Made by a program: the position numbers and the translations under genes
Part shown: positions 25,947-39,033 of the stretch, in pieces
How positions within the stretch are numbered: position 1 is the stretch's first letter
Layout of the letters: every line of letters starts with the position of its first letter
Notes under the pieces: generated by a model
The model's database searches: none
Told to the model about the DNA's origin: nothing
What the model saw: the letters and a program-made list of their open reading frames with translations, nothing else
From: Labia minor
Taxonomy: Eukaryota > Arthropoda > Insecta > Dermaptera > Spongiphoridae
Direction: 5' to 3'
Length of the DNA: 64,000 nucleotides
Assembly: GCA_963082975.1 (NCBI GenBank)
Contig: OY720350.1
Coordinates: forward strand, 891,001-955,000

Positions 25947-28330
25947 TGATATAAAATGAAAATGAAAGTCGTCAATAGATGCCGGAAGTGTGGGTTGCCG
26001 GGAGAAACGATTGAATTCCGAGCCCAATCCCATATAACATCTAAAGGGATGGGTGAAAGTTTTCCAGCAATTTGCTGAGAAAGTGAGCTAAATTCGGATA
26101 ATAATAATAATAATTGATGCAATAATACTGAAGCAGGTACAGGTTAATAAACGTAATGTCCACATGTGCCATATTGACTACAGTAAAGCGTTTGACTCAG
26201 TAGCACACGATTGGCTTATCAAAACTCTCGAAATTTACAAAGTGTCGCGCAACATCATAGACTGTTTGCAGGAAATGATGAGAACCAGGAGGACAAACAT
26301 CTTCTTCAATAATAATAAGACATCGGACCAGTTGTCGTCAAACAAGGCATCTTTCTCCCCTGTGGTTCTGTTTGGCACTGAACTCGCTCTCGACTTTACT
26401 TTCTAAAACTGAATTGGGCTATAAGGTCAGCTGACATGGTAATAGTGTAAGGTTATCACATCTCTTATTTATGGATGACCTGAAGCTGTATTCGGACAAC
26501 CGTAAGTCTTCACACCTTGGTGTCTACAGTTCGGAGGTTCTCTGAGGACATCTGTATGTCGTTTGGCCTCGATAAATGCGCTGTTGTGAATATTAAACGT
26601 GGAGAAATAAAGAACACAGGAGAATCAGTTGCGAGAATAGAAGAACTGAAATCTTTAGGGATAACATTTAGGGATAACACAAAACAACAGAATAGAACAG
26701 AATATCCAATTAAAAAAGCAATTCCGCGAAATGTATCGAAAGAGAGTAACTAAAGTGTTAAACACAAAATTATCAGGGGGAAACACAATTACAGCCATCA
26801 ACATATCCGGGCCGTACCCATACTAACTTACTCGTTTGGCATATTAAAATGGAGTAACACAGATCTCAACAACCTAGATAGAACAACTAGAAGGTTATTG
26901 ACAAAGTTTCGACATCTACATCCAAATTCATCTGTGGTTCGCTTGTACACGCCTAGGAAAGAAGGTGGGAGAGGACTGGTTAATATCTTGAACTTATGTA
27001 GGTCACAGGAGTTTAAAATGAAAAATCGCCTACTATCATCTGAGGACGACCTTATTATGGCGGTAAGAGAAGTCGACCAGGGTTTCACTCCCCTCAACTT
27101 GAAGGAATTGAATAATCCTGCCCCAGTAAGAGAGGAAATAAGTAGAACATGGAGAGAGAAGATACTTCATGTTAGATTCCACTTAACGATTGACGATCCA
27201 TACATCGATACCATGGCATCTATCCAATGGATAAAGGATGGCTGTCTATATCCGGAAACCGAGGGTTTTATGATAACTTTTACACATAACTTAAAAAAAA
27301 GTGAAAGCGAAAAACTATCCAAATATGAGGAACTTGCATTTCAACTAAAAAAAAATCTGGAAACTCGAGAGAGTTTTAATTCACCCTATCGTCATCTCTG
27401 CTGAAGGAGTAATTTCAAAAAAAACATCAAGATCCTTTGAGAAACTTTCCATGCCCAACAACTTACTGAAAATAGGCCAAAGAGCAATCTTGCTCCAAAC
27501 CTGTCATATAGTTCGAAAGTTTCTCAATTGAACATTGTCCGGAGGATTGTCTGGGATAGGGTGAAATCCCTCCCCAGGCCGCCCGAGCCTAACCCTTAGA
27601 AAAGAAAAGAACAATTAGGGTAGGTGAAATTTTACCAGTACGTAGTACTGAGTAAGTGTAATAAATCGGATAATAATAATAATAATAATAATAATAATCA
27701 ATTGTCATTATTTTAAGTCAGTATAATCGTATAAAATCAATCGTCTCACGAGTGATTGTAGTGCATACTACACTTGAAGACATAACAAATACCACATACA
27801 AATTTCTCTCCCAGAACCCTAAAGGCGCCATTGGGTGTGTGGGTAGCGAACCTGCCTCACATTCACATGGTCCCTGGCCTGGCAAGGGAATTTCCCTAGC
27901 TGGGGTCTATGGGACGGAGTCAACCCAGGGGAAAAGCTACTTGATAGCGCCTCCGATCAAGAAAATCAAGGTAAAGGTGGAGAGGACCCGTTCTACTGAT
28001 CATAGGACACCTCATTGATAGGCGTTGTCCTTGAGTAGAACGTACAAAGTCAGAGGTTATCCCAGAACCATGTGTTGTACTGGGATTGCCCCCCCCCCCT
28101 CCCACCCATAATAGAACTTATAAATTCATCGATTTCAATCGCCTTGACCTTCATGTTGATCGATAAAAAGAGAGAGAGAGAAGGAAAAAGAAACAATAAT
28201 AGAGGATTAAGGATCTCATAACATCCTTAAAACCAAAACCAAGAAAGAAAAATAGAGCAAATATCAAAATCTTACGATGAAGCTGAAATCTGAGTGAAAA
28301 AGTGTTGTGGATTTCTAGATGTCAATAGTG

Positions 28331-39033: not shown

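Follow-up and report, generated by a model that had tools for sequence, protein, structure and literature searches.

TAA targeting by Dong elements is already in print. (TAA)n is given as the target of Dong in most insects, molluscs and cnidarians, and a SANT/Myb-like domain is reported for R4/Dong (PMC7998251). DONG is described as targeting the (TAA)n of the rDNA spacer (PMC2887409), the RNA of a (TAA)7|Dong 5' junction as self-cleaving by an HDV-like ribozyme (PMC3774820), and DongAg and DongBg as inserting in microsatellites, with target duplications stated for all known R4 and CRE elements (both PMC3636483). The R2 elements insert in 28S genes and have N-terminal zinc fingers (PMC7998251 or PMC3774820).

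Very probably, the element described here is a LINE of the Dong/R4 type that was active recently and, equipped with a presumed restriction-like endonuclease, uses pre-existing TAA microsatellites as sites for target-primed reverse transcription. Most of the sampled copies are found between two TAA stretches, with TAA on the sense strand and with the 3' phase CGG-A-TAA. The Dong/R4-type clade label is presumed, from the protein match to R2 taken together with the TAA target. What is added to the published picture is the empty sites, the fixed phase, the 5' microhomology, the covarying 3' RNA fold and the 5' module of two diverged families.

The full-length element and its relatives

The window, that is, the whole stretch of 64,000 nucleotides analysed (G000:C9:891001-955000 of a 604-Mb genome), has an A+T content of 71% and contains one full LINE and at least five older partial copies. 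The full copy is made up as follows.

34661..38522, minus strand: full-length LINE, with a 3' end common to 29 loci listed and a 5' part common to 12 loci
34794..38393, minus strand: single open reading frame of 1199 amino acids, stop to stop, with reverse transcriptase, Cys-His motif and presumed restriction-like endonuclease

The full copy starts with ATGTAAAC repeats and an AT-rich part followed by CATCCTTGG... and ends in ...TTAACTCGG(A). Its 5' end had been placed at 38441 in a sequence-only reading of this DNA. The end is here corrected to about 38522, as other copies also contain the roughly 80 bp that precede position 38441 and consist of ATGTAAAC repeats and AT-rich DNA. The 3' end given in the same reading stands, with CGG at 34664-34662 (minus strand) followed by A7 TAATAATAG at 34661-34646.

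The 1199-aa frame matches RVT_1 in Pfam (E=1.6e-26), and the nearest solved proteins are R2 (9nl2, 3.1e-37; 9nl3, 2.4e-31; 9dou, 4.9e-31). The match to 9nl2 (E=3.1e-37) falls in two stretches, of which the second and weaker, at residues 958-1048, spans the C-terminal Cys-His region. Non-LTR relatives are found among the matches, and the R2 entry 8gh6 is at 6.5e-20 no better than the LINE-1 entries (about 4.5e-20). An RPDILL..IIIEI motif outside the R2 match is presumably the catalytic motif of the restriction-like endonuclease. Weak Pfam matches below the cut-off were obtained to PF15518 (E=0.0023), a viral endonuclease family, and to zf-RVT (E=0.042). The first 206 amino acids gave no Pfam match at all at E<=10, neither to a SANT/Myb-like domain nor to a zinc finger. 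The search for relatives in IMG/VR and in prokaryote genomes gave 2 and 14 pattern-matching stretches respectively, none of which was confirmed.

Dong, an R4-clade element of Bombyx mori and other animals, is likewise a LINE in (TAA)n with a reverse transcriptase and a restriction-like endonuclease; in the element of the window the endonuclease is presumed. Dong has an HDV-like ribozyme at its 5' end. Neither the window nor two separately searched 5' ends gave an Rfam ribozyme match at E<=5, and a pairing scan yielded candidate stems only. The young families here start with ATGTAAAC repeats, followed by an AT-rich part. The R4 elements of nematodes make target-site duplications, and a 13-bp duplication is suggested here. 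Burke et al. in 1995 reportedly found R4 to be specific for the large-subunit rRNA gene, whereas the target here is TAA. For R2, the reverse transcriptase and the Cys-His region align with the frame in the window, but R2 has a 28S target and N-terminal zinc fingers where the present element has TAA and no N-terminal zinc finger by Pfam.

Older and short copies in the window

689..1229, plus strand: older partial copy, preceded by (TAA)6 and followed by A(TAA)4
25947..26098, plus strand: older partial copy, after (TAA)12 and before (TAA)5, with a BLAST match from 26018
26114..27670, plus strand: older 5'-truncated copy, directly behind the TAA tail of the 25947 copy, with (TAA)9 next
28386..28630, plus strand: short internally deleted copy, its GGGGTACG... 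5' end joined to the 3' UTR, between (TAA)18 and (TAA)7
28652..28700, plus strand: 5'-terminal part of another copy (CATCCTGTATATGATATTAAACTGCCT), directly behind (TAA)7
60008..60067, minus strand: copy of about 60 bp resembling the L079 family, with the 3' end TCGAATAAT and TAA runs at 60088-60068 and 60007-59990

The last two of these had been overlooked before. In the third-listed region, similarity of the 25947 copy to the full element by BLAST starts only at 26018, and the boundary at 25947 is that of the sequence-only reading. According to that reading the copies end in CGG directly followed by (TAA)n; all five 3' ends that it listed are present, but in four copies one A intervenes, and the 3' TAA runs begin at 1230 (4 units), 26099 (5), 27671 (9) and 28631 (7). 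Several copies had also been said to start after (TAA)n, which holds for the runs that abut 689 (6 units), 26114 (5) and 28386 (18) and for a run of 12 units that lies 2 bp from 25947. Nine of the 30 TAA/TTA tracts of at least four units in the window are within 6 bp of an element end.

Copies in the genome and their 3' junctions

When the 3' end of the element was searched against its own genome, 50 matches were obtained, and the best 40 of 508 candidates were scored, so that the copies discussed below are a ranked sample. Near-identical copies (L003-L030) are scattered, with 96-99% identity over the 3' query and 97.4-100% over the aligned element, which agrees with the proposal that the lineage is active or was so recently. 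The terminal base is the same in all 29 loci listed, the window copy included; they end in ...TTAACTCGG and, in L027, in TTAACTCGA. The element end is followed by A's and TAA units in 28 of these 29 loci, while L027 instead continues AAAAATATTAATATG. The 44 distinct 3' junctions collected by pattern from the window and the loci comprise 35 of the type A+TAATAAT, five of the type An+TAATAA and four others (L020, L022, L027 and L030). The phase CGG-A-(TAA)n is thus found in 35/44 distinct junctions and either other perfect phase in 0/44, in a collection whose pattern picks up just those 3' ends that closely resemble known ones.

TAA in the 5' flanks

The flanks were scored for 33 copies, which are the 40 scored places minus the window copy, the empty paralogue and the full-length copies. 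The 20 nt upstream contain at least three TAA units in 24/33 of these non-full-length copies and at least two in 27/33, and the 20 nt downstream contain at least three in 32/33. In the background, consisting of 84,294 bases of host DNA around copies and two window stretches, a 20-nt stretch contains at least three TAA units at 0.44-0.59% of the positions and at least two at 4.1-4.3%; for the upstream enrichment (24/33) the binomial P is about 1e-46 with the 0.59% background. Antisense units, two or more TTA, were seen in 3/33 copies on either side, and the strand of insertion is thus fixed.

Nine of the 33 copies were upstream misses. Three of them (L007, L010 and L069) have two units and then filler. 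Five have no units there: L013 with an ACTT repeat, L070, L072, and L028 and L075, both with TTA-type repeats. The remaining one, L027, has none either and is flanked on both sides by AT-rich DNA that contains no TAA run, which suggests that the element can also use AT-rich sites lacking TAA. For L027 and L072 the 5' end was badly parsed, and both were scored as misses among the 33 copies.

All 12 full-length 5' ends (L031-L042, window copy included) are located behind TAA-rich runs, as judged by eye, with a variable number of ATGTAAAC-type repeats between the TAA run and the body. The runs are imperfect in the window copy and in L037, bases intervene in L035, L040 and L042 (in the last case tens of them), and the run of L033 and that of L038 directly abut the AT-rich part. 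In an older family with the 5' end GGGGTACG, as at 28386 in the window, TAA precedes 6/6 fetched copies, drawn from 29 listed non-window places matching in the 5' part, and the run in L084 is imperfect. Most of the sampled copies therefore carry TAA on the 5' side when compared with the background (24/33, 12/12 of the full-length copies and 6/6 of the older family), as would be expected from the TAA targeting first proposed. Tract length did not differ significantly between the 5' and 3' sides (means 18.7 and 14.8 nt, 21 copies, P=0.09).

Empty and occupied sites

Several copies are harboured by a host repeat with three TAA runs. This repeat (L089-L093 and the flanks of L014, L018, L032 and L034) is present in high copy number, with 1024 first-look candidates and repeated landing sites; the search with it gave 42 matches, 40 of the 1024 candidates were scored, and five unoccupied copies were fetched. 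Empty sites lacking a TAA run would have spoken against targeting, but 5/5 of the fetched empty sites, which are paralogous copies and not the same locus in another individual, carry TAA runs. Run 2 has 6 units in 5/5 of them and run 3 has 6-10 units. Since the empty host repeats carry TAA runs, the target run predates the insertion.

TAA is the target, and the run probably grows a little on insertion. The occupied run 2 has 7 units on the 5' side and 5 units on the 3' side in L014, which is 6 above empty, and 7 + 3 units in L032/L026, which is 4 above empty; these two are the clean run-2 cases from which the unit gain is taken, and TAA runs also change length by slippage. In L034/L077 the 5' side of run 2 has 6 units and then an impure longer stretch, and the 3' side has 4 units. 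Occupied run 3 has 8 + 4 units in L018, 8 + 6 in the second L014 copy and, in L064, 15 units and then further TAA on the 5' side with 4 units on the 3' side. In L063 the host-repeat run 2 is found on the 5' side, and the 3' flank is not from the host repeat. The earlier suggestion that TAA tracts are both target and product of insertion thus holds for the target, and as regards the product it receives modest support from the gain of 4 and 6 units in two clean occupied runs. Copies are also found in the TAA flanks of each other, at 26098/26114 and 28630/28652 in the window, in L086 and in L014 (runs 2 and 3).

The full copy in the window can be compared with an element-free paralogue.

20160..21137, plus strand: paralogous site without the element, in which a TAA run is followed by 944 bp that match the 3' flank (33720-34659, in inverted orientation) at 99.5% identity
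34646..34661, minus strand: 3' flank A7 TAATAATAG, forming with the TAA-rich flank just above 38522 a candidate imperfect 13-bp duplication (12/13)

The inverted duplication joins 20194-21137 and 33720-34659 (944 bp, 99.5%), and the element is located at the edge of one copy only. To the left of the full element, 33 bp of TAA-rich DNA match the 20160-21137 paralogue at 97%, and the left and right flank matches overlap by 13 bp on the element-free paralogue. The right-hand copy of the candidate duplication is AAAAATAATAATA and the left-hand one is AAAAATAAGAATA, and this one imperfect site (12/13) suggests a 13-bp target duplication at the full copy. The +4 and +6 units in the two pure runs agree in size with such a duplication. 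Further to the left of the full copy the loci are unmatched, so a rearrangement also touched that TAA tract.

Alternative explanations

The TAA next to the elements could in principle be a simple-repeat tail, made by the reverse transcriptase at sites without TAA. The 3' junction phase is fixed, at least three TAA units are commoner on the 3' side (32/33) than on the 5' side (24/33), and because the two clean occupied runs are longer than the empty ones, the tail may be partly new. This explanation is nevertheless improbable, given that TAA is also found 5' of most copies, that the empty sites have TAA and that the impure 3' flanks of L022 and L028 resemble target DNA. With the A+T content of 71%, the 30 TAA/TTA tracts of at least four units in the window and the position of L027 in AT-rich DNA without a TAA run, insertion anywhere in AT-rich DNA might be proposed, the TAA targeting then being only apparent, TAA runs being common. 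With three or more TAA units per 20 nt at 0.44-0.59% of background positions, the 24/33 upstream flanks make this highly improbable, as does the fixed strand (two or more TTA units in just 3/33 copies on either side).

The TAA that flanks both ends could also have come from recombination or assembly collapse between TAA tracts, and not from insertion. The left flank of the full copy matches the paralogue for about 33 bp only, the break of the rearrangement coincides with the TAA tract, and in L063 host-repeat run 2 is confined to the 5' side. However, L014, L018, L032/L026 and L034/L077 keep the expected halves of the host repeat on both sides, and the copies have many different 5' truncation points, so that this origin of the flanks seems very unlikely. 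Insertion into pre-existing TAA microsatellites remains the preferred reading. Many young copies together with a multi-copy host repeat, empty and occupied, allow target choice, phase, the length of the duplication and the growth of microsatellites to be measured, and provide a natural catalogue for an endonuclease that would be aimed at a microsatellite instead of rDNA.

3' RNA structure, microhomology and proposed insertion mechanism

34662..34742, minus strand: predicted 3' UTR three-way-junction RNA, with a closing stem that reaches the last bases of the element

Folds of single 3' UTR sequences gave z values of -1.95 to -4.01 (5 sequences). Over 10 sequences from several families, 93.9% of the cells of the three-way junction pair, where several rows are close relatives, columns 15/34 are unpaired in 7/10 and the structure was derived from one member sequence. 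Changes on both sides were found in 7/23 pairs, compared with 0-2 in slid versions. The covariation score was reached by 0/500 shuffles, the pair count by 2/500 and the number of further pair types by 454/500.

Truncation at the 5' end is common, with many different truncation points. The microhomology with TAA at the 5' truncation junctions has a mean of 2.0 nt compared with 0.87 nt in random joins (P=0.0006, n=15). The set consists of 17 of the 24 TAA-flanked copies minus two irregular ones; L066 and L067 (filler) and the diverged L068, L071, L073, L074 and L076 were omitted. The excess fits target-primed reverse transcription on a nicked TTA strand and joining of the cDNA to the TAA strand.

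For nicking, priming and second-strand cutting the proposed mechanism follows the known R2 pathway. The protein would bind the 3' RNA fold and nick the TTA strand within the run, and cDNA synthesis would be primed at the nick, that is, by target-primed reverse transcription. The second strand would be cut about 13 bp away, leading to the duplication, and the cDNA end would join the TAA strand, possibly aided by microhomology in the truncated copies. The fresh TAA flanks could then take in further copies.

A more speculative and rather doubtful extension is that the element propagates its own target. Pairing of the 3' UAA units of the RNA with the nicked TTA strand would fix where cDNA synthesis starts, insertions would seed and lengthen microsatellites that are reused into head-to-tail arrays, and diverged families would swap 5' modules via the tandem junctions. 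This builds on the fixed strand, the fixed phase CGG-A-TAA and the gain of several units per insertion, and less confidence was placed in it because the gain comes from two clean cases.

Family relations and other features of the window

The protein identity between the window family and the L079/L080 family is 55-62%. Both families share approximately the first 300 bp, comprising the repeats, the AT-rich leader and the first codons (about 38220-38522, minus strand, in the window). Identity in this 5' module is 86-100% per 50 columns, the low value being due to a short indel, and 50-76% beyond it. On the simplest reading of these alignments, the two families would have exchanged the 5' module recently. 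Some copies (L032, L077, L080 and window 28386-28630) have lost internal sequence but retain the 5' end and 3' UTR, and resemble short non-autonomous derivatives.

Elsewhere in the window, a 359-aa open frame at 24197-25276 (minus strand) looks like a mariner-type transposase. An inverted repeat of about 1.03 kb (7738-8771 and 11037-12066) has 99.2% identity, and further local repeats are numerous from about 4.7 to 19 kb. A long G+C-rich hairpin at 9393-9533, matched on both strands by miRNA precursor models below gathering scores, is probably a repeat palindrome.
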